A DNA stretch of 49,516 nucleotides. Origin: Bacteroidaceae bacterium (lineage in GTDB: Bacteria; Bacteroidota; Bacteroidia; Bacteroidales; Bacteroidaceae). Each line of letters starts with the position of its first letter. Positions within the stretch are counted from its first letter, which is position 1. This document shows, one piece after another, positions 11,520 through 21,890 of this stretch. The position numbers were made by a program, and so were the translations under genes. Under the pieces are notes generated by a model. That model made no database searches and was not told where the DNA came from. It was given only the letters and a program-made list of their open reading frames with translations. The stretch covers positions 1 through 49,516 of the forward strand of contig JAGCGS010000066.1 in the NCBI GenBank assembly GCA_017649485.1, written 5' to 3'.

Positions 11520-12110
11520 ATGATTAATTACAGTTTGGTAAAGCGTTATGCGAAGGTGGGCGATGAAACCAGCATCAAGCTCACCTACGGTACGGCACAG
11601 ACAGTGAAGACCATCGACCTGATGGAGTTCGCCAAGCACATTGCCGATCATGGCAGCGTGTATGGCAGAAGTGATGTTCAGGGTATCCTGACCCTGGCTG
11701 TGGATTGCCTGCGTGAGATGCTCCTGTCGGGCTACAAGGTGAACCTGGGCGAGCTGGGTGACTTCTCCGTTTCCCTGCATGGCAAGGGTGTGGCGGATGC
11801 CGACAAGTACAACCCATCGGTACAGGTGAGCAAGATCAAGGTAAAGTGGAGCCCTGGCGTCATGTTCCGAAATCTGGTAGAGGATGCCGAGTACAGCCTC
11901 GTGCCTACCCTGCGTGAGAAGGCTGCTCTGCTGAAGGCCATCAAGGCTGGTCAGACCACAGTGGACATCTCTATCCCTCCACGACCAACCACTGGAGGCT
12001 CAGGATCCAACACTGGTAACGGTGGCAACACAGGTGGTGGCACAGGTGGCAATAACGGTGGTGATAACAACGGAGGTGGCGATAATGGCGATGGCGACCT
12101 TGACATTTGA
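11520..12110 (+). CDS. HU-family DNA-binding protein with Gly/Asn-rich tail
   Basis: A 196-residue protein. Residues 1 to about 125 resemble the Bacteroidales HU-like (HU-HIG) domain: MINYSLVKRYAKVGDE, then DVQGILTLAVDCLREMLLSGYKVNLGELGDFSVSL, which parallels the HU dimer core and arm. Residues about 157-192 are a low-complexity tail rich in Gly, Asn, Asp and Thr. It is expected to bind and bend DNA. This family is regularly next to DUF4248, smalltalk and amidase genes, as seen here. The last residues (DLDI) and the TGA stop are already within the first unit of a heptamer array, so the array edge supplies the stop. Confidence 0.8.
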   Translation: MINYSLVKRYAKVGDETSIKLTYGTAQTVKTIDLMEFAKHIADHGSVYGRSDVQGILTLAVDCLREMLLSGYKVNLGELGDFSVSLHGKGVADADKYNPSVQVSKIKVKWSPGVMFRNLVEDAEYSLVPTLREKAALLKAIKAGQTTVDISIPPRPTTGGSGSNTGNGGNTGGGTGGNNGGDNNGGGDNGDGDLDI

Positions 12111-12147
12111 CAATTTACAATTTACCATTGACCATTGACCGTTAGAT
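12101..12147 (+). repeat. Heptamer array A (GACCATT family)
   Basis: About six to seven 7-base units, from TGACATT and TGACAAT types to GACCATT, GACCATT and GACCGTT. It starts inside the last codons of the HU-like gene and is followed at once by hairpin core A. Orientation is GACCATT on the + strand, as in all other arrays of the window. Confidence 0.75.
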
Positions 12148-12209
12148 AAATCGCTCACGCTCGACATTCTTTGAGCAAGCTCAAGACTGTTCTCGCTTAA
12201 TCGCGATTT
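12148..12209 (+). repeat. Hairpin core A of the composite repeat
   Basis: A 27-nt hairpin occupies 12164-12190: a 12-nt arm with one bulged base, a CAAG loop at 12176-12179 and an 11-nt arm, with ten pairs and one T-C mismatch. An outer 7-bp stem AAATCGC (12148-12154) with GCGATTT (12203-12209) encloses it. The same 27-nt design, with different bases in the stem, is found at 14990-15016 and 21058-21084. Confidence 0.6.
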
Positions 12210-12245
12210 TAATCATTGAATGTGTCCTTTGGGATGTGGTGATAG

Positions 12246-13199: not shown

Positions 13200-13210
13200 A
13201 TCAGGCTGCG

Positions 13211-13260
13211 TTTTAACTGTTTAGGGAGTGCAAATTGATGTACTCCTTAAACAGTTTAAA
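13211..13260. terminator. Long hairpin after the amidase
   Basis: Two 19-base arms (13211-13229 and 13242-13260) pair with one mismatch and one G-T pair around a 12-base loop. It starts 11 bases after the amidase stop and lies between convergent genes, fitting a terminator; it also marks the edge between the accessory module and truA. From 13261 to 13436 I see no gene or clear site. Confidence 0.6.
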
Positions 13261-13436
13261 TCAAATCTCCTTACAAAAAAGCTTCTGGCATTAGTAATTC
13301 CGCTGTGGTTATACTGATGTTCGCTGAGAAACGATAATAATATACCAGCCAAGCAGATTATTACCAATAATCCTATTTTTCAAGACTAAGTTTGCACAAA
13401 TTCAGATCTATTAAAAGGATATAGGTAAGACTTTGA

Positions 13437-14219: not shown

Positions 14220-14885
14220 ATGAAACTACCTAAAATTACGCCAATTATCACAGTGATGGCAGCCATTTGCCTGTTAGGAAGCTGCAAGAAGAAAGACATG
14301 TCGATGAAGATGAACGACCCTCATAACATCAAAGGCGTCATCAGTTACCAACGCGATTTCCCCGACGACAACGACACACAACTGGCTGCAGCCAAAGCAA
14401 TTGGCGTGAAGCCGTTCAACAAGGCTGAGGATGCTCCAAATATCAAGCAGTTTAAGTTGATAGAGAGTAACGAACATTATACCCTTGACGATTTCACCCA
14501 CTCTGTGCCTTACGTGGTGCCACAGGCAGCCAAACTGATTGATGACATTGCCGTGAGTTTCCTTGACTCTCTTGCCAACAAAGGACTGAATCCTTACCGC
14601 ATCATTATCACATCGGCAACACGTTCGAAGGAGCAGCAACAACAGCTGTCAAGAAGCAATATCAACGCCACAGAGAACTCCACGCATTGCTATGGTACTA
14701 CCTTCGACATCAGCTGGAAGCGTTTTGAGCAGGTAGCTGACAAGGATGGCAGACCTATGCAGGAGGTGGGAGCAGATACGCTGAAGATGGTGCTGAGCGA
14801 GGTGCTGCGTGATGCCCGTCTTGCCAAACGCTGCTACATCAAGTATGAGAGGAGGCAGGGATGTTTCCATATTACAGCGAGGTGA
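14220..14885 (+). CDS. DUF5715 lipoprotein, peptidase M15-like
   Basis: A 221-residue protein with a lipoprotein signal (ICLLGSC, Cys21), so it should be membrane-anchored in the envelope. The C-terminal half has TSATRSKEQ, then [11 protein letters not shown] (His and Asp) and GCFHITAR (His), which is the spacing of zinc ligands in LAS/M15 D,D-carboxypeptidase-like folds. This agrees with the DUF5715 family. A role in peptidoglycan trimming is likely but inferred. The TGA stop is the first TGA of composite repeat B, so the repeat directly abuts the coding end. Confidence 0.75.
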
Positions 14886-15093
14886 CGATTGACTATTGAC
14901 TATTGAAGATTGAAGATTGAAGATTGAAGATTGAAGATTGACAATTGACCATTGACCATTGAGCTTCGGTCCAATTATTTCGCGACTCGGCATAGCCCAA
15001 GCAAGCTGGGCTATGCTCTTACTGCTCCAAAAAGTGAAGATTGAAGATTGACCATTGACGATTGAAGATTGACCATTGAATGTTAAACATTGG
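14883..15093 (+). mobile_element. Composite repeat B: heptamers, hairpin core, heptamers
   Basis: Left heptamers (14883-14965) include GACTATT, GAAGATT and GACCATT units. A 68-base core (14966-15033) contains CGCGACTCGGCATAGCC and the 27-nt hairpin 14990-15016 (11 bp, CAAG loop at 15002-15005). Right heptamers (15034-15093) resume with GAAGATT, GACCATT and GACGATT. The layout, order and total length (211 bases) nearly equal composite C at 20930-21146 (217 bases). No coding sequence lies within it. It is probably a non-autonomous repeat; how it moves or spreads is not visible. Confidence 0.6.
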
Positions 15094-15120
15094 AATAATA
15101 AATCGCTGCGATTTATTATT
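15094..15120. terminator. Hairpin at the 3' end of nnr
   Basis: AATAATAAATCG (15094-15105) pairs perfectly with CGATTTATTATT (15109-15120) around CTG. It overlaps the stop codon of nnr. The element resembles the outer AAATCGC/GCGATTT stem of core A. Confidence 0.5.
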
Positions 15121-16630
15121 CTAAAGCTTTCCAGGCTTTGTGGAGATAGTCAACTACATCACCGGCTACGAGGGCTATTTCGCCTTTGTCACGAGCTGCA
15201 AGGTCGCCAGCTAAGCCATGAATGCAGACACCCATCTTGGCTGCGGTATCAGCATCGTAGCCCTGTGCCAGCAAGGCAAGGATGACACCTGTGAGTACAT
15301 CGCCACAACCACCTGTAGCCATGCCTGGATTGCCAGTAACATTGAACCAGCAACTGCCTGACGGCGAGATAACAGCCGTATAAGCACCTTTCAAGACAAT
15401 ATGTATGTCACAAGTCTGTGCCAAGTTCATCGCCTTAGACAGACGCTCGAAAGAGTTGGCACATTTACCCACCAAACGATCCATCTCCCCAGGATGAGGC
15501 GTGATGATGCTACCCTTCGGCAGACGACGCAAGTAGGTGTGATTCCCCCCTATCAAGTTTAAGGCATCGGCATCAATCACCAAAGGTACGGAACTATGTG
15601 TCAGCAAATCGTATAATGCCTGCTGCGTCCTGTCTGACTTTCCCAAGCCTGGTCCTACACCTATTGCCTGATAAGACTTTAGATCAGGTGTTTCAGTATA
15701 ACAAAACTCATCCCTGTCGAGGGAGGTCATTGCCTCTGGCACCGATGTCTGTATGATGGTGTTGTTACAACGTGGAACATGCACCGTGAGTAGTCCGACA
15801 CTAGAACGAAGACATGCACGAGCTGCCAAGACAGAAGCACCAGCCATGCCCTGCTGACCAGCTATGAGCAAAGCCCTGCCAAAGTCGCCCTTATGAGAGA
15901 AACGGCTACGGATCTTCAGCTGATACCTCATCCTACCTGCATCACCCATCTCATAAGGTGTGTAAGTCTGACGGATGCCCTCACTGTTCAAACCGATGTC
16001 GAGCACCTTCCATGCACCCACACACGACTCGTTCTCAGCAAAGAGAAATGCCAACTTGGGGAACTGTAGGCTCAGTGTATAGTCGGCTTTCACCACATGA
16101 TCCAGGTTATTGAAGGTGTTGTCCTCACCCATCAAACCGCTTGGGATGTCGATGCTCACCACTGTTGCATCAGATGCGTTGATGAACTTCACCAACGAGG
16201 CAAAGCCACCAGCGAGAGGCTTGTTCAGCCCACTTCCAAACAAGCCATCAATAATCACATCATCCTCAGTCAGTTGAGGCAGTGCAAACTGGTTGGTTAT
16301 CACATGAAATTTCACTCCTTCAGTGATGCTCAGCAAATCACGATTCGTTTCACAATCTGTCGAGAGCTTGCCTGTGGTATTGAACAGATAAGCCACAGGC
16401 TTGTAGCCTTGTTCTGCCAGCAGTCGAGCCACCGCTAAGGCATCGCCTCCGTTGTTACCAGGTCCGGCAAAGATAACAAAACGGGTGTCATCCTTGTCGG
16501 GCCACTGATTCATGATTTCTTTTGCGACAGCCTGGGCTGCACGTTCCATCAGTGCCAACGAATCAATCGGCTCATGCTCGAATGTATAGGCATCCAGCTC
16601 TCTGATGGCTGATGTAGGAAATATTTTCAT
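15116..16630 (-). CDS. nnr: Bifunctional NAD(P)H-hydrate epimerase / ADP-dependent dehydratase
   Basis: A 504-residue two-domain protein. Residues 1 to about 215 are the YjeF_N epimerase domain with AGPGNNGGDA at 55-64. Residues about 225-500 are the ADP-dependent carbohydrate-kinase-like dehydratase with GVGPGLGKSD and NPGMATGGCGDVLTG near 434-448. It repairs damaged hydrated NAD(P)H. It heads a leftward run with overlapping or closely spaced envelope genes upstream (acid phosphatase 13 bases away). Length and motifs are complete. Confidence 0.95.
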   Translation of the reverse strand: MKIFPTSAIRELDAYTFEHEPIDSLALMERAAQAVAKEIMNQWPDKDDTRFVIFAGPGNNGGDALAVARLLAEQGYKPVAYLFNTTGKLSTDCETNRDLLSITEGVKFHVITNQFALPQLTEDDVIIDGLFGSGLNKPLAGGFASLVKFINASDATVVSIDIPSGLMGEDNTFNNLDHVVKADYTLSLQFPKLAFLFAENESCVGAWKVLDIGLNSEGIRQTYTPYEMGDAGRMRYQLKIRSRFSHKGDFGRALLIAGQQGMAGASVLAARACLRSSVGLLTVHVPRCNNTIIQTSVPEAMTSLDRDEFCYTETPDLKSYQAIGVGPGLGKSDRTQQALYDLLTHSSVPLVIDADALNLIGGNHTYLRRLPKGSIITPHPGEMDRLVGKCANSFERLSKAMNLAQTCDIHIVLKGAYTAVISPSGSCWFNVTGNPGMATGGCGDVLTGVILALLAQGYDADTAAKMGVCIHGLAGDLAARDKGEIALVAGDVVDYLHKAWKALE

Positions 16631-16643
16631 ATCAATTATCTTG

Positions 16644-17456
16644 TCAGTTCATCTCTGCAGGGTTGAATGAGAAGGTAGAAGGAGCTATCTTACCATCTTT
16701 CTTCAGCTTGGCAAACTCTTTCTTGGCTTTCTCCAGTTGCTTCTGGAAAGCTTCGTTGGCATGGAGACGTGCCACCACACCGGCTGCTACGATACGGCCG
16801 TTATCCACATCGCTCTGGTAATGATAACCCGCAATGACACGGCTCTCACCCATCTCGTAGCCACGCTTGAGAATCTCGTTCTGACGGTCCACATTGATTT
16901 CAGCCAGCACCAGCGCAGTAGCCCAACCGATGGCGGTATGTCCTGACGGATAGGAACCGTTGTTAACCAAAGCTGCCTCATCCTCAGGCACACTGGTACC
17001 GATGCCAAAATAAACGAACGGACGCATACGTTGGTAATACACCTTTGCCTGACCACCGCTCAACACACCAGCATCGCCATTCATATTGGTCATGAGTTTG
17101 TAGATTTCAGGCGTGTTCTGCTCGTTAATCTCAATGCCGAAAGCCTCACTGAAAGCAACAGCCACACCCTTGGGTGTTACATCGGCATCTGCTATGGCTT
17201 GCTTGCCACGCGGACGCAGACGCTGGTAGCGCCCCCAGTTGAAACGAGCCTCATCAACAGCAAACTTGGCACTACCTGGTTCTGGAGGTGGAGGCAACAG
17301 ATAAACACTGCTCGGCACATCACCCTCTTCCAAGAAGAAATACTGAGGAGCTGTAGAACGGTCATAAACACCGGCACGAGCCTTAGACTGAGCATCCTGT
17401 GCCATCATATTCATTGCAGCCAACACGCATGCTGCGAGTAATAAAATCTTTTTCAT
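16644..17456 (-). CDS. Secreted class A non-specific acid phosphatase (PAP2 superfamily)
   Basis: A 270-residue protein with a Sec signal peptide (about residues 1-19, ending MMAQ). PAP2 catalytic motifs are complete: KVYYQRMRP (138-146), GSYPSGHT (167-174) and GESRVIAGYHYQSD (203-216). The GSYPSGHT signature is that of class A bacterial acid phosphatases (PhoN/PhoC). It would hydrolyse phosphomonoesters in the periplasm. It lies 11 bases after the stop of a second, membrane-bound PAP2 phosphatase, in the same direction, so both are probably co-transcribed. Confidence 0.9.
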   Translation of the reverse strand: MKKILLLAACVLAAMNMMAQDAQSKARAGVYDRSTAPQYFFLEEGDVPSSVYLLPPPPEPGSAKFAVDEARFNWGRYQRLRPRGKQAIADADVTPKGVAVAFSEAFGIEINEQNTPEIYKLMTNMNGDAGVLSGGQAKVYYQRMRPFVYFGIGTSVPEDEAALVNNGSYPSGHTAIGWATALVLAEINVDRQNEILKRGYEMGESRVIAGYHYQSDVDNGRIVAAGVVARLHANEAFQKQLEKAKKEFAKLKKDGKIAPSTFSFNPAEMN

Positions 17457-17467
17457 ATTTTTATTTT

Positions 17468-18226
17468 TTAAGTATTAATCGTATAACAAGCATAAAGGGA
17501 GATACCTGCCACTATCAGCAGGCATGCCACCATTGGCACCCACCCATGTTTCGCTTCTTTTATCGGAGTTTGGTGGGTGAGTTTCTTATAGATAAACCAT
17601 ACGAGGGTAGCAGAGAACAGACCTACCAATGCTCCACAAAGGATGTCGCCTGGATAGTGAACGCCCAAGTAGATACGTGTGTAGCAGTTCAATATCGCCC
17701 ACCCCATGACGAATAATGTCAACGGCTGACTCCTGAACAGATAGAACAGGAAGAATGCCAAACCAAAGGAATTGGCGGCATGACTGCTGGGAAAACCATA
17801 TCGCCCACCCCGATAGCCATCAACGATATGAACCAGGTCGCTGATGGGGTTATCTACATTGGCTGGACGAAGTCTGCACACCAACTGACGGATGATGGTA
17901 GAGCTCAGCTGATCAGCTAATGCTATCATGAAGAAGATGGCCACGATGCACGCTACAGCCTGCTTGGGTTTCATATTCTTGAAAATCACGTAAGCCAATG
18001 CCAAATACATAAGCACCCACATCCATTTGTCGGTGAAAAGTATCATGAATGAGTCGAAGAAAGCATTATGCGCTCCGTTCAGCCACAGCAGCAAGTCTGT
18101 GTCGATGTCATTGACCATTGACCATTGACCATTGACCATTGACCATTGACTATTGACTATTGACCATTGACCGTTGACCATTGACCAATCTGGATTGAGC
18201 ATTATTTCATTTATCGTATTTATCAT
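17468..18226 (-). CDS. PAP2 family membrane phosphatase with heptapeptide-repeat N-terminus
   Basis: A 252-residue protein. After residue 40 it is a standard membrane PAP2 lipid phosphatase: IDTDLLLWLNGAHNAFFDSFM, several membrane helices, and the motifs RLRPANVDNP, GFPSSHAANSFG and RIYLGVHYPGD. Likely substrates are undecaprenyl diphosphate or other lipid phosphates. Residues 14-39 are only the translated heptamer array (MVNGQWSIVNSQWSMVNGQW), which is not part of the enzyme fold. The start is therefore uncertain: ATG at 18226 or an ATG within the array just before residue 40. It begins 2 bases after the LtaS-like gene's stop. Confidence 0.85.
   Translation of the reverse strand: MINTINEIMLNPDWSMVNGQWSIVNSQWSMVNGQWSMVNDIDTDLLLWLNGAHNAFFDSFMILFTDKWMWVLMYLALAYVIFKNMKPKQAVACIVAIFFMIALADQLSSTIIRQLVCRLRPANVDNPISDLVHIVDGYRGGRYGFPSSHAANSFGLAFFLFYLFRSQPLTLFVMGWAILNCYTRIYLGVHYPGDILCGALVGLFSATLVWFIYKKLTHQTPIKEAKHGWVPMVACLLIVAGISLYACYTINT
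18107..18188 (+). repeat. Heptamer array inside the PAP2 gene N-terminus
   Basis: About eleven to twelve 7-base units, mostly GACCATT with two GACTATT and one GACCGTT, on the + strand. The gene on the - strand reads them as NGQWSMV-like heptapeptides at residues 14-39. Confidence 0.85.
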
Positions 18227-18228
18227 AA

Positions 18229-20265
18229 TTAACGCTTAGCAATATCATCATATAGTTTTTGCAGGTATGCCTGTCCTTTACTGAGGTTCGCTCCAGGACG
18301 TATTCCTTCATCCCACACAGTCTTACCTGCTTGATTGTCAAATATCAAAGTATTATCATCAGTAACCATGCCAAAAGCATCGGGAACCGTGAAGAATGCA
18401 AAATGTGGATTGGAAGGATTCAGCATGTCTTTGCTGAAGGTAAACTCATCATGGGGTAAGCCCAACATCGCCAATAAGGTGGCAGCGATGTCCTGCTGTG
18501 AGCCGATGGTGTCAATCACCTGTGGTTCCTTTACTGCTCCACCTATCATGATTAGAGGTATCTGATAGCGTTCTGGAGTGAAGTTGCTGATGTTTTCAGG
18601 ATATGCACCTAAATGATCTGGCACTAACACTACCAGTGTTTGCTCCCATTGAGGCAGCTGTTTGAAAGCCTGGATGAAGCGGCCAATGCAATCATCTGTA
18701 TAAGCAAAGGCGTTCAAACGTTCATTATCTAAACGATGATAAGGAACTTCGAATGGCTCATGACTGCTGGAAGTCTGGAGAACTTTGAACCATTGACCGT
18801 TGACCATTGACCGTTGACCGTTGACCATTGACCGTTGACCGTTGACCATTGACCGTTGACCGTTGGACGTTGAGACACTCTCCTGCCCTATAGGCATCTC
18901 TTCTAACTTAGAGGAGGAGTTAGTGAATTTCGCTTCTGTTTTTAGGTCTTCTAATAGACGGTTGAAGACTACTTCATCGTGGGCACCCCACTTGCTAAGT
19001 CGTTCACTCACAGGGAAATCCACATCGCTGATGATTTGATCAAAGCCTTGCGCCATAAGATATGACCGCATGTTGGTGAAGTCGGCATCACCTCCATAAT
19101 AATAAGTGGCTTCATATCCTGCCTGCTTCAAGCTACGGGCGATGCCAGGGAGGTTCTGCGTTTTGCGAGGATATTTCATCAAGCTGGTGGTGGGCTGTGC
19201 CGGATAGCCACTGAGAATAGACACCAGTCCACGATCGGTGCGGAAGCTGTTGGCATAGAAATTAGTAAATAAGATACCTTCTTGAGCCAAAGCATCTAAA
19301 TTGACCGCTACATCTGGTTCGCCTCCTAAAGAAGTCATCAGTCTGGATGAGAAACTTTCCAAGATGATGAATAAGACGTTGACCTTTGGGCGTTGAATAT
19401 TGACAGACACGCCACCATCTCCCTTATCTACCAATGTGTCGAAAATGGCGGTAGCCTCGGCATCGTCCATGAAACGATATTGATGAGCAAAGTCTTTCTG
19501 CTTGGATAGTGATTCCATCAAGTTGAAGGCAGGATTCAGGGCAGCATGGTTCAGTCGCATGTCGGTACTGAAAAACACCTTACCTGTATTCATGGTGGAA
19601 ACGGTAAAGCCACCTCGGATGGGGATGAAAAGGAGGGCAGTAAGGATAAGGAGAAGAATTGACCGTTGACCGTTGACCATTGACCATTGACTATTGACCA
19701 TTGACCATTGACCATTGACCATTGACCGTTGAGCATTGACTATTGACCATTTACCGTTGAGCACTGTGCTCCGAATTTCTGTTGACCGCCAGATTCCCAA
19801 GCCCTTAAATACGCTATATATAATATAGGTGACGAAGAGGATGGCTAATAATGCCAGAAGGATGTACAACCAACTGACACTGGCAAAGGCATCCTTGGGC
19901 GAGGTGAACAGGTAGAACAGAGGCGTTGCATCGAGACGAAAGCCCCAAAACTCATAGAGTGCCATGTCAGCCACAAAAATGATAGCTACTATAGCACTCA
20001 TGATGATGAAATAAGTCTTCATGGCAATGCTTACCCATGGGTGACGAGTCCAAATGCCAGCGATGAGGAGTAAGCCTGGAATGATGGTGAGATAGCCTGC
20101 CATAGAAGCATCAAGCTTCAGTCCGTGCCAAACCACAGCCAGCCAGTCTGTCCAGGTGGCATCGGCATAGAGTTCATGATACCATGCCATGAACAACGGT
20201 TTCTGAATGGCAAAGATGCAAAGCCAAGCAACAAATATCCATATAAACGCCCAGATTCTCCTCAT
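18229..20265 (-). CDS. LtaS-like phosphoglycerol transferase / sulfatase-fold membrane protein
   Basis: A 678-residue inner-membrane protein. Five membrane helices lie in residues about 1-225, followed by an extracytoplasmic alkaline-phosphatase-superfamily domain with NVLFIILESFSS (metal-binding Glu), SFRTDRGLVSILSGYPA (nucleophile Thr343), LQTSSSHEPFEVP and LVPDHLGAYP (metal-binding Asp-His). In the family such enzymes transfer phosphoglycerol or phosphoethanolamine to lipids or glycans. Two heptamer arrays are read in frame: residues about 169-204, between the fourth and fifth helix, and about 464-494, just before LQTSSSHEPF in the catalytic domain. All catalytic motifs remain. The start ATG overlaps the stop of the ABC gene by four bases. 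Confidence 0.85.
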   Translation of the reverse strand: MRRIWAFIWIFVAWLCIFAIQKPLFMAWYHELYADATWTDWLAVVWHGLKLDASMAGYLTIIPGLLLIAGIWTRHPWVSIAMKTYFIIMSAIVAIIFVADMALYEFWGFRLDATPLFYLFTSPKDAFASVSWLYILLALLAILFVTYIIYSVFKGLGIWRSTEIRSTVLNGKWSIVNAQRSMVNGQWSMVNSQWSMVNGQRSILLLILTALLFIPIRGGFTVSTMNTGKVFFSTDMRLNHAALNPAFNLMESLSKQKDFAHQYRFMDDAEATAIFDTLVDKGDGGVSVNIQRPKVNVLFIILESFSSRLMTSLGGEPDVAVNLDALAQEGILFTNFYANSFRTDRGLVSILSGYPAQPTTSLMKYPRKTQNLPGIARSLKQAGYEATYYYGGDADFTNMRSYLMAQGFDQIISDVDFPVSERLSKWGAHDEVVFNRLLEDLKTEAKFTNSSSKLEEMPIGQESVSTSNGQRSMVNGQRSMVNGQRSMVNGQWFKVLQTSSSHEPFEVPYHRLDNERLNAFAYTDDCIGRFIQAFKQLPQWEQTLVVLVPDHLGAYPENISNFTPERYQIPLIMIGGAVKEPQVIDTIGSQQDIAATLLAMLGLPHDEFTFSKDMLNPSNPHFAFFTVPDAFGMVTDDNTLIFDNQAGKTVWDEGIRPGANLSKGQAYLQKLYDDIAKR
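18787..18876 (+). repeat. Heptamer array with 21-base higher-order unit in the LtaS-like catalytic domain
   Basis: From 18795 to 18857 three exact copies of a 21-base unit (GACCGTT, then GACCATT, then GACCGTT) stand in tandem, flanked by further units. Each copy adds seven codons (NGQRSMV on the - strand), so expansion by this unit keeps the reading frame. Confidence 0.9.
19657..19762 (+). repeat. Heptamer array between membrane helices of the LtaS-like protein
   Basis: About fifteen 7-base units (GACCATT, GACCGTT, GACTATT, GAGCATT variants) in + orientation. They encode residues about 169-204, in the loop before the last membrane helix. Confidence 0.88.
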
Positions 20266-21890
20266 ACTATCTTTTTCAACTGCAGTCGATGATCAATGCA
20301 TGAAGGCAGTTCGTTTTCAAAATGCGTCACCATCATCAAGGTTTTACCCTCACGGCGGCAGAAAGCATCTATAATGGTCTTCACCTTGCGACGATTGAAA
20401 GTATCCAATCCATGCAACGGCTCATCAAGAATCAACAGCTCAGGATCTTTCACAAAGGCCCTTGCCAACAAAACCAAACGCTGTTCGCCATCGCTCATCT
20501 GCAAGAATGGGCGATCAGCCAAATGGGAGATACCGAATGTTTCCATCCATTGCAGGCAAACAGTACGTTGCTCTGGTTTAGGCTTGACATATAACCCGAT
20601 GCTATCATGTAAGCCACTCGCCACAATATCAATGGCAGGCAGGTTTTTCAGATAAGCACGGTGCATCTCAGGACTCACATAGCCGATATGTTTCTTGATA
20701 TCCCAGATGCTCTCGCCTGTACCTCGTTTCCTGCCAAACAGACTGACATCGCAGGCATAACTCTGGGGGTTGTCGGCACAGATGATACTCAGCAGTGTAG
20801 ATTTTCCACAACCGTTTTCTCCACTCAATGCCCACTTTTCACCTCGCTTTACCACCCAGTCCAAGTCTTTTAAGATAGTACGGGTACCGTAACGGATGCT
20901 GACTTTCTGCAGTCTGACGATTTCGTCACGTTGAACATTGACCATTGACCATTGACAATTGACAATTGACGATTGACCATTGACCATTGACCATTGACAA
21001 TTGACCATTGACAATTGACCATTGACAATTGACTGCGTCCTATTTCGTCGCGACTCGGCATAGCCGATGCAAGCATCGCTCTGCTCTCGCTGCTCCGACC
21101 ATTGACCATTGACCATTGACGATTGACCATTGACAATTGACAATGGTGAAAGGTCAATCGTAGAAAACCAAGCCCGATATTCGTTTAGTGTCATCTTGCC
21201 CGCTATCTTCATGTCTTTCACCCTCACTACATGGGTGATGAAGTCGGGTACACTGTCCATCATACTCATCACCAATATCAACTGTATGCCTTGCTCAGCC
21301 AACTGCATCAGAAGCTGTGTGAGCAAGTCGCGTGTGGCAGCATCTAAGCCAATATACGGATTGTCGATAATCAGAATACGGGGCTGAGTCAACAGCATCT
21401 TCACCAATTGAAACTTTCGCATCTCACCACTACTCAGCAGGATGATGGGCTTATCGAGCATCTCATCGACATGGAACAACTTCACCAAACGACTCACGAA
21501 ATGTTGGTCATCACCATCTGCAGATGAAAGGTCAATCTCCAATAAATCTTTCACTAAAGGCACCTCATCCAGGTCAGTGGAGTTCCATCGTTGCTGGTAG
21601 TAATAATTTGTATCAGCACTACCAAACGTATCACGAAAACTGATATGCTTGATGTTTTTATATACTTCTTTCCATGGTGAGGGTGAGAAATCATAGTCAA
21701 TCGAGCCTACCTGCAAAGGATACTTGCTGATGAGCATATCCACCAATCGGCTCTTGCCAGCACCATTCTCCCCTACTAACGCCACCTGCTCACCCTTGCA
21801 TAACTCCAAGCTGATGGGCTCTGCCATACGGGCTTCAGGCAAACGTGGCACCGCATTGATTAATCTGATTGAAAATTGACTGTTGACCAT
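20262..21890 (-). CDS. Twin-ABC ATP-binding protein (ModF-like) with repeat-filled linker
   Basis: A 542-residue soluble protein with two ABC ATPase domains and no membrane helices. Domain 1 has Walker A GENGAGKS at 40-47, signature LSSGEMRK and Walker B ILIIDNP. Domain 2 has GENGCGKST, signature MSDGEQR and LLILDEP. This resembles ModF-type proteins, whose role is poorly defined. The linker (residues about 248-321) is entirely composite repeat C, including its hairpin core, read in frame as NGQWSMV-like and SEQREQSDACIG segments. The ATG at 21890 also lies in a short heptamer array. The last four bases overlap the start of the LtaS-like gene, so translation may be coupled. Confidence 0.85.
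   Translation of the reverse strand: MVNSQFSIRLINAVPRLPEARMAEPISLELCKGEQVALVGENGAGKSRLVDMLISKYPLQVGSIDYDFSPSPWKEVYKNIKHISFRDTFGSADTNYYYQQRWNSTDLDEVPLVKDLLEIDLSSADGDDQHFVSRLVKLFHVDEMLDKPIILLSSGEMRKFQLVKMLLTQPRILIIDNPYIGLDAATRDLLTQLLMQLAEQGIQLILVMSMMDSVPDFITHVVRVKDMKIAGKMTLNEYRAWFSTIDLSPLSIVNGQSSMVNGQWSEQREQSDACIGYAESRRNRTQSIVNGQLSMVNCQWSMVNGQSSIVNCQWSMVNVQRDEIVRLQKVSIRYGTRTILKDLDWVVKRGEKWALSGENGCGKSTLLSIICADNPQSYACDVSLFGRKRGTGESIWDIKKHIGYVSPEMHRAYLKNLPAIDIVASGLHDSIGLYVKPKPEQRTVCLQWMETFGISHLADRPFLQMSDGEQRLVLLARAFVKDPELLILDEPLHGLDTFNRRKVKTIIDAFCRREGKTLMMVTHFENELPSCIDHRLQLKKIV
20930..21146 (+). mobile_element. Composite repeat C: heptamers, hairpin core, heptamers, inside the ABC gene
   Basis: Fifteen units (20930-21034; GACCATT, GACAATT, GACGATT) are followed by a 62-base core (21035-21096) with CGCGACTCGGCATAGCC and a 27-nt hairpin at 21058-21084 (ten pairs, one mismatch, CAAG loop 21070-21073). 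About seven more units follow (21097-21146). The whole element of about 217 bases is read through by the ABC gene on the - strand without a stop. Core sequence and order match composite B. Confidence 0.65.

Follow-up and report, generated by a model that had tools for sequence, protein, structure and literature searches.

A dispersed, covarying hairpin of about 75 nt associated with heptamer arrays in Bacteroidales: a probable non-autonomous mobile element

The described systems closest to the element considered here are small palindromic or tandem repeats, whose features are given below as they appear in the available portions of the cited reports. The repetitive extragenic palindromic (REP) class bears a GTAG tetranucleotide at one end (PMC3733652). 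The CGTC repeats, which include the Rickettsia palindromic elements, have no dedicated transposase, occur in genes and are also found in Bacteroidetes; their tag often reads TGTC, and they possess stems of 8-9 bp starting with two A-T pairs, loops of 4-5 nt and unpaired CCA-like tails (PMC3733652). Members of the IS200/IS605 family, such as IS608 and ISDra2, insert 3' of a short target and recognize their cleavage sites by pairing with a guide sequence that lies 5' of the hairpin base (PMC5934647, PMC8266576). TAACTGA heptamer direct repeats form dispersed arrays that are protein-readable in one direction and are also present in five Bacteroidetes (PMC4679880), while the BrickBuilt miniature inverted-repeat transposable element (MITE) of Porphyromonas gingivalis combines tandem with inverted repeats (PMC4596501). 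We analyzed a 49,516-nt stretch of a Bacteroidaceae genome (assembly GCA_017649485.1, contig JAGCGS010000066.1; hereafter the window), in which two composites, B and C, each comprise a hairpin-bearing core between arrays of heptamers and a further hairpin, A, follows a third array. A preliminary description of these composites knew of no earlier account, and we likewise found no published description of the core in the open-access literature.

We read the core most readily as a mobile hairpin some 75 nt long that is non-autonomous and similar in lifestyle to REP sequences and MITEs, one of the possibilities that the preliminary description had already raised; we assign this a probability of roughly 0.65. 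It explains the dispersal and turnover of the copies, their fixed ends and the absence of target duplication. Further points in its favor are the covariation of the stems, the constant phase in GANNATT arrays, the presence of subfamily A inside a palindrome and the difference in core occupancy between the loci L218 and L023. The core of about 65 bases first proposed does exist, but the unit extends to about 75 nt, with a 5' mini-hairpin and a covarying outer stem in addition to the conserved hairpin, and is longer than the 27-nt hairpin alone. From the source genome (G000, 83% complete) 22 cores were aligned and 21 trimmed ones (20 distinct) kept, the truncated copy at L014 being dropped. In a 23-pair structure 96.0% of their cells pair as against a shuffled mean of 89.9% (0/500), with 26 double-change cells versus 7.2 (0/500) and a covariation score of 0.248 versus 0.137 (0/500); slid structures pair in 36-53%, and the measure of further pair types is ordinary (18 versus 17.5 shuffled; 262/500). 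A diverse set gave the same picture: 72 of 84 cores were aligned, with 87.8% of cells pairing versus 76.6% shuffled, 190 double-change cells versus 70.3 and a covariation score of 0.345 versus 0.163 (0/500 for each), while slid structures pair in 34-45%. The twelve cores left out were in part false, truncated or flank-replaced (L014, L147:6083, L202, L224:42, L224:7633, L245), the others being L063, L152, L153, L169:4902, L169:5662 and L177. The compensation first noticed in three hairpins is thus large in both sets. Among the 72 cores there is hardly any change in the basal helix TCGCGACTCGGC...CTCGCTGCTCC or its bulges, and it is the apical and outer stems that covary; a TC/TC mismatch recurs at the same position of the outer stem in 23. 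A mini-hairpin of at least 3 pairs lies 5' of the outer stem in 59 of the 72 versus 0.30 in shuffles, a count that may be flattered because several of the six other omitted cores (L063 to L177 in the above list) have an unusual 5' part.

Double changes in these stems often swap several adjacent pairs together, for example GATG/CATC versus CAAG/CTTG at the apex. This is a point in favor of a purely mutational origin of the compensation, wherein template switching copies one hairpin arm onto the other and selection for structure is not needed. We consider such an origin very improbable, as the bulged basal helix stays constant while the stems on either side of it vary, and as it leaves dispersal and turnover unexplained. 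Recognition of a folded DNA strand, or templated hairpin repair, would account for the covariation as well. On the plus strand G-U cells outnumber A-C cells by 168 to 25, and by 44 to 22 once three positions are set aside (p 0.009, with sequences that are not independent), a hint that the plus strand is the one that folds.

With composite C as a DNA query, 57 places were recovered in the source genome, and model R1 returned 38 matches at E<=0.01 and 44 at E<=1. Thus, a genome-wide search of the type originally proposed yielded further copies with covarying stems rather than chance similarity. Across a set of 61 genomes, R1 matches numbered 64 in G013, 47 in G029, 40 in G008, 27 in G006 and 22 in G027, with 13 weaker ones in G023 and any match at all in 15 genomes. 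The broader model R2, with at most 35 candidates scored per genome, matched 34 of 133 genomes of the genus at E<=1e-6, at least 12 matches being found in each of G000, G013, G029, G006, G027, G127, G100 and G108; in a phylum sample 2 of 296 genomes matched, one of them the source genome. The exact core pattern occurs in at least 110 genome-contig stretches, nearly all from Bacteroidales by record title, and in 9 viral contigs. Phage and plasmid records yielded one match each. The range is wider than the Prevotellaceae, the group in which the preliminary description proposed to search. Isolates among the matches listed include Phocaeicola coprophilus, P. faecicola, Bacteroides faecalis, B. fluxus, Leyella stercorea (two) and Parabacteroides faecalis. 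The isolate cores (L197 not included) are identical over the compared stretch and lie in one shared gene cluster, which we take to be a conjugative element; the viral contig L259 carries the same core sequence. The occurrence of this core sequence within that cluster in several genera (L149, L156, L158, L164, L165, L228, L246, L247, L259) points to recent transfer, probably by a conjugative element. A core also lies on a contig titled as a Christensenellaceae metagenome-assembled genome (MAG; MSGY01000009.1, L172), which is perhaps misbinned.

The preliminary description had regarded heptamers and core as parts of a single composite element. This did not hold: core-free arrays, cores in other heptamers or in none, and orthologous arrays that differ in the core indicate that the heptamer-core-heptamer order is not one unit, and a fixed composite repeat was rejected, the two partners being separable across loci and genomes. 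In the source genome GANNATT-like arrays account for 34 of 43 arrays at the examined loci, and the cores occupy one phase of them, with GANNATT directly 5' of the core exactly in 16 of 22 cases (22 of 22 with at most one substitution) and GANNATTGA directly 3' exactly in 14 of 22 (21 of 22 with at most one substitution). Between adjacent units of these loci the differences by position are 72, 37, 127, 158, 77, 30 and 39 (333 pairs, array edges included), the two N positions contributing 53% of the 540. Elsewhere the core is flanked by CTCAATT, CTCCATT, CATTATT, TTTCA(A/G)G or GTTATTG repeats, or by no heptamers. A 7-mer repeat spans the core (>=6/7) in 17 of 24 own-genome cores as against a cross-group pairing mean of 6.9, and correspondingly in 11 of 16 cores of relatives (3.0), 62 of 109 on named contigs (21.5) and 3 of 10 on viral contigs (0.6). 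The backward control pattern (AGTTANN repeats), with 0 matches in G000, had 60 in G105, 44 in G114 and 42 in G104, indicating that other heptamer satellites fill other genomes, in this case one that likewise has free positions.

The ends of the unit are fixed. In a set of 159 cores retrieved with a loose regular expression, which includes a few loose matches, 134 possess a mini-hairpin, with TT ahead of it in 116, and a T is found 7 nt after CTCC in 153 of 159, the unit ending in (G/T)T. Comparison of filled and empty sites, as originally proposed, produced one clean case and otherwise messy pairs: L230 differs from L185 by a clean insertion of 76 nt where a run of degenerate heptamers meets its flank, with no target duplication, except that as many as 2 T shared by both ends are ambiguous. 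At L218 (G013) and L023 (G000) the same array has and lacks the core, respectively, and at L012 a core lies in GANNATT where L196 has core-free CATTATT-like heptamers. Pairwise comparison of L198/L243, L236/L082 and L227/L231 gave no clean site, and comparison of a GDP-fucose-synthase-like gene with L210, a divergent relative, led no further. A G013 core lies at the same place as one of G000 at 1 of 30 own-genome core loci, in a KdsA-like gene, and at a CapA-like locus the cores of the two genomes agree in neither position nor strand (the comparison covered 37 G013 stretches with 62 regular-expression cores and is blind to sites that were not assembled). A recent spread is supported by seven sites in G013 whose cores are identical over 66 nt while the surrounding heptamers differ.

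These observations also bear on the chief rival, by which cores are copied between heptamer arrays through ectopic homologous recombination or single-strand annealing, the arrays grow by slippage and no transposition is involved. The register of own-genome cores between heptamers agrees with it, as does the failure to find a transposase (see below), and identical cores in arrays of different heptamers are what mosaic exchange predicts. Matches to the heptamer pattern TTGANNATTGANNATTGANNATTGA number 331 in G000, 226 in G013, 202 in G006, 105 in G108 and 93 in G127, with at most 29 in every other of 133 genomes, so that the genomes with more than 90 are all core-rich (5/5). However, the core-rich G029, G027 and G100 have few such matches (11, 5 and 17), though other heptamers are present in these genomes or in similar ones. 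Heptamer-free sites (e.g. L149, L152 and viral contigs) also harbor cores with unchanged ends, hairpins of subfamily A sit within an unrelated palindrome, and the TT and (G/T)T ends are constant across contexts. We hence regard recombination alone as unlikely and favor a mobile hairpin.

Own-genome cores lie in frame within open frames, including that of an ABC protein, and use all three core frames. The other host frames presumably encode an RND pump, a glycosyltransferase (two cores), KdsA, a lipoprotein, an ATP-grasp-like enzyme, a large membrane protein, a membrane permease, a CapA-like protein and a GDP-fucose synthase. By a strict count over 137 cores, bacterial cores in genes are antisense in 17 cases and sense in 2, and viral ones antisense in 0 and sense in 2. 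All eight common heptamers have stops in every sense frame, while seven are stop-free on the antisense strand in any frame, GACTATT being the exception; the consensus core is open in 2 of 3 antisense and 1 of 3 sense frames. As the heptamers are mostly stop-free that way, in-gene insertions would survive mainly when the antisense strand is coding. This orientation also bears on the possibility that the core is a functional structured RNA, for instance a processing, stability or regulatory hairpin, that is under selection and multiplied by other means. The strong covariation in both alignments and the plus-strand excess of G-U over A-C would be in line with an RNA, but most in-gene copies are antisense, so that the host mRNA carries the other strand; the sites turn over fast and have no common neighboring gene. 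Rfam gave 0 matches in the window at the curated threshold and none to the cores at E<=1, and G-U pairs are common in REP repeats too, according to the available part of PMC3733652. An RNA function is on these grounds improbable, less so than a mutational origin of the compensation, and the mobile hairpin remains preferable.

The features of the window relevant to these interpretations are as follows.

12096..12140, + strand: heptamer array preceding hairpin A (Tandem Repeats Finder)
12144..12210, + strand: hairpin unit A, sister subfamily, TCACGCTCG...CTCGCTTAATC (model score, subfamily regular expression)
14220-14885, + strand: DUF5715 gene, left of composite B
14883..14960, + strand: left heptamer array of composite B, intergenic (Tandem Repeats Finder)
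14961..15035, + strand: core unit B with mini-hairpin, outer stem and CAAG-loop hairpin at 14990-15016 (R1, 79.7 bits)
15036..15092, + strand: right heptamer array of composite B (Tandem Repeats Finder)
15116-16630, - strand: YjeF/Carb_kinase gene, right of composite B
18109..18187, + strand: core-free heptamer array near the start of a PAP2 gene (17468-18226, - strand; Tandem Repeats Finder)
18789..18873, + strand: core-free heptamer array inside a sulfatase-domain gene (18229-20265, - strand; Tandem Repeats Finder)
19658..19760, + strand: second core-free heptamer array inside the same sulfatase-domain gene (Tandem Repeats Finder)
20262..21890, - strand: gene with two ABC domains and composite C in the linker
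20931..21030, + strand: left heptamer array of composite C, within the ABC gene (Tandem Repeats Finder, listed to 21033)
21031..21096, + strand: core unit C with hairpin at 21058-21084, 3' outer-stem arm missing (R1, 85.1 bits)
21097..21141, + strand: right heptamer array of composite C (Tandem Repeats Finder)

Direct reading of the sequence bore out the heptamers-core-heptamers order of composites B and C, and equally the 27-nt hairpins of B, C and A (the last at 12164-12190), with their 12-4-11 layout, CAAG loop and compensated pairs 5-23 and 6-22, which are A-T and G-C in B and C and T-A and C-G in A. In core C, which lacks the 3' outer-stem arm, CTCC directly joins GACCATT, and composite C is translated in frame between the two ABC domains. 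Tandem Repeats Finder thus recovered the arrays of both composites and three more inside neighboring genes. Hairpin A, initially described as a diverged third core, is real as a hairpin, but its R1 score is only 22.3 bits (E 0.0042), its basal arms differ from those of B and C, and it is a member of a sister subfamily with arms TCACGCTCGGCATAG...CTCTGCTCTCGCTTAATC, so that the compensation between A and B/C is a comparison between subfamilies. A regular expression for these arms recovered 27 distinct sequences in the loci retrieved, of which two, both in L224, are of low complexity. Subfamily A is positioned after ATT in GANNATT arrays; in the window, unit A is preceded by the ATT of a GANNATT-type unit and followed by AATCATTGA. 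At L010, L014, L061 and L062 a hairpin of this subfamily lies inside a palindrome, between CGGATTT and GTAATCCG, and the same palindrome, with CGGATTT joined to GTAATCCG, occurs uninterrupted near the RAYT-like gene of the source genome (RAYT, REP-associated tyrosine transposase). Weak single matches in other genomes represent further subfamilies with other basal arms. In the hairpin subfamilies at L277, L284, L287, L294 and L298 the 3' arm frequently terminates with TATATTTG or TATCTTTG, which resemble the Bacteroidetes promoter motif TAnnTTTG.

Five core-rich relatives have the gene cluster of the window in conserved order; of these, only G013 and G006 include the sulfatase gene. R1 detected no core at the places of B or C in the stretches of G013, G008, G027 and G029, and none at that of C in G006, where B is not covered; G027 has a core-like R1 match (44.2 bits) between its pullulanase and ABC genes. 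At the B site G029 joins the flanking genes by 7 nt, and G008 has 233 nt there. Between the DUF5715 and YjeF genes (window 14886-15115; L134, L136, L137, L138), G013 and G027 have an extra open frame that is absent from the source genome and G029. Elsewhere in the window, a strong inverted repeat at 13204-13267, after an amidase gene, matched a microRNA family below threshold (31.2 versus a gathering score of 95; E 0.0048) and is more likely a terminator than a microRNA.

The search for a mover covered MAGs that are 74-90% complete. Y1_Tnp matches above the family cut-off were obtained in 3 of 9 core-rich genomes (G000, G006, G127), all nine being incomplete assemblies, and a Y1/RAYT protein as the shared mover was rejected, since it is not common to the core-rich genomes at the default threshold. 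With E up to 1, most core-rich genomes showed weak matches covering a comparable part of the profile; a divergent Y1 family built on them was likewise rejected, as 9 of the 13 frames read are unrelated proteins. Eight of these nine are presumably one cytidylate-kinase-like protein and the ninth another protein, while the remaining 4 of 13 are Y1-like, namely two in G006, one in G127 and the RAYT-like one of the source genome. This last gene (a 183 aa frame; L031, G000:C14:1631-4882) has on either side multiple copies of one long palindromic repeat, built on CGTTCGGATTTGTAATCCGAACG and unlike the core. Another open frame, of about 1,300 aa (L032, G000:C56:75162-78350), matches Y1_Tnp and contains repeated peptides, SKGACPLVS and TRGQAPLLS among them, that suggest a further family of in-frame insertions.

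Several results weigh against a mobile hairpin. Y1_Tnp was not above the cut-off in G008, G013, G027, G029, G100 and G108, and the RAYT-like protein of G000 had no match in 15 other genomes. Plus-strand folding of cores C (z -0.18 as RNA, 0.06 as DNA) and A (-0.53 and 0.28) is no better than that of shuffles, although core B folds better (-2.24 and -1.84). Clustering of 719 open frames from loci L141-L259 revealed no gene recurrently linked to the core, apart from the cluster of the conjugative element and a handful of small ones. The core subfamily has a single clean empty site at the nucleotide level, the other pairs being messy, and the relatives that are core-free at the B and C sites of the window are otherwise rearranged there.

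Were the element mobile, a trans-acting enzyme would recognize the folded single strand, cut after the T at both ends and insert the element after TT, for which heptamer arrays would provide rich, mostly harmless landing sites. The outer stem, just 5' of the hairpin base, pairs with the 3' end of the element and may act like the guide of IS200/IS605, a role with which its covariation is compatible. A bolder and doubtful extension is that outer stem and mini-hairpin form a rewritable guide of a transposase-less element, retargeting the core in each lineage to its own heptamer satellite (GANNATT, CTCAATT, CTCCATT, CATTATT or GTTATTG), with the satellites letting the core enter genes in frame and several sister subfamilies sharing one mover. 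If true, these proposals would add a wide-range Bacteroidales hairpin family to the few palindromic elements that live inside protein genes, link it to heptamer satellites of unexplained origin and provide a natural setting in which to test whether an element that encodes no enzyme chooses its targets by base pairing. In-frame mobile cores would also explain odd repeats such as SMVNGQW in host proteins.

With the known systems the element compares as follows. TAACTGA repeats consist of a different heptamer, and the available portion of their description reports single-base variants as rare and mentions no hairpin core (PMC4679880). BrickBuilt resembles our element in being from Bacteroidales and in having tandem plus inverted repeats; however, as far as the accessible part of its report goes, its 23-nt tandem unit lies inside the element, which is always intergenic (PMC4596501). 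MITEs with terminal inverted repeats differ in that the one clean empty site shows no target site duplication. Like CGTC repeats, core copies occur in genes and in frame, and at column 18, just ahead of GTC, 12 of the 20 distinct own-genome cores have C and the other 8 have T. Unlike the tag of those repeats, the (C/T)GTC of the core is internal, the outer stem and mini-hairpin lying outside it, the pairs beside it are C-G and G-U or A-U, and there is no CCA tail. With the REP/RAYT systems, as characterized in the available portions of PMC3733652 and PMC8266576, the core shares short dispersed palindromes, covarying stems, bulges, G-T pairs and occurrence also in genes. It differs in being a unit of about 75 nt with two hairpins that is tied to heptamer arrays; GTAG is absent from the foot of the 72-core consensus, the core-rich genomes share no RAYT, and the RAYT-like gene of the source genome is flanked by a different palindrome. 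IS200/IS605 elements differ from the core in that the latter has no transposase gene and one main hairpin, and a guide role of its outer stem would be a putative parallel; the likeness to them lies in insertion of the core after a fixed TT (116/134) with no duplication at the clean empty site.

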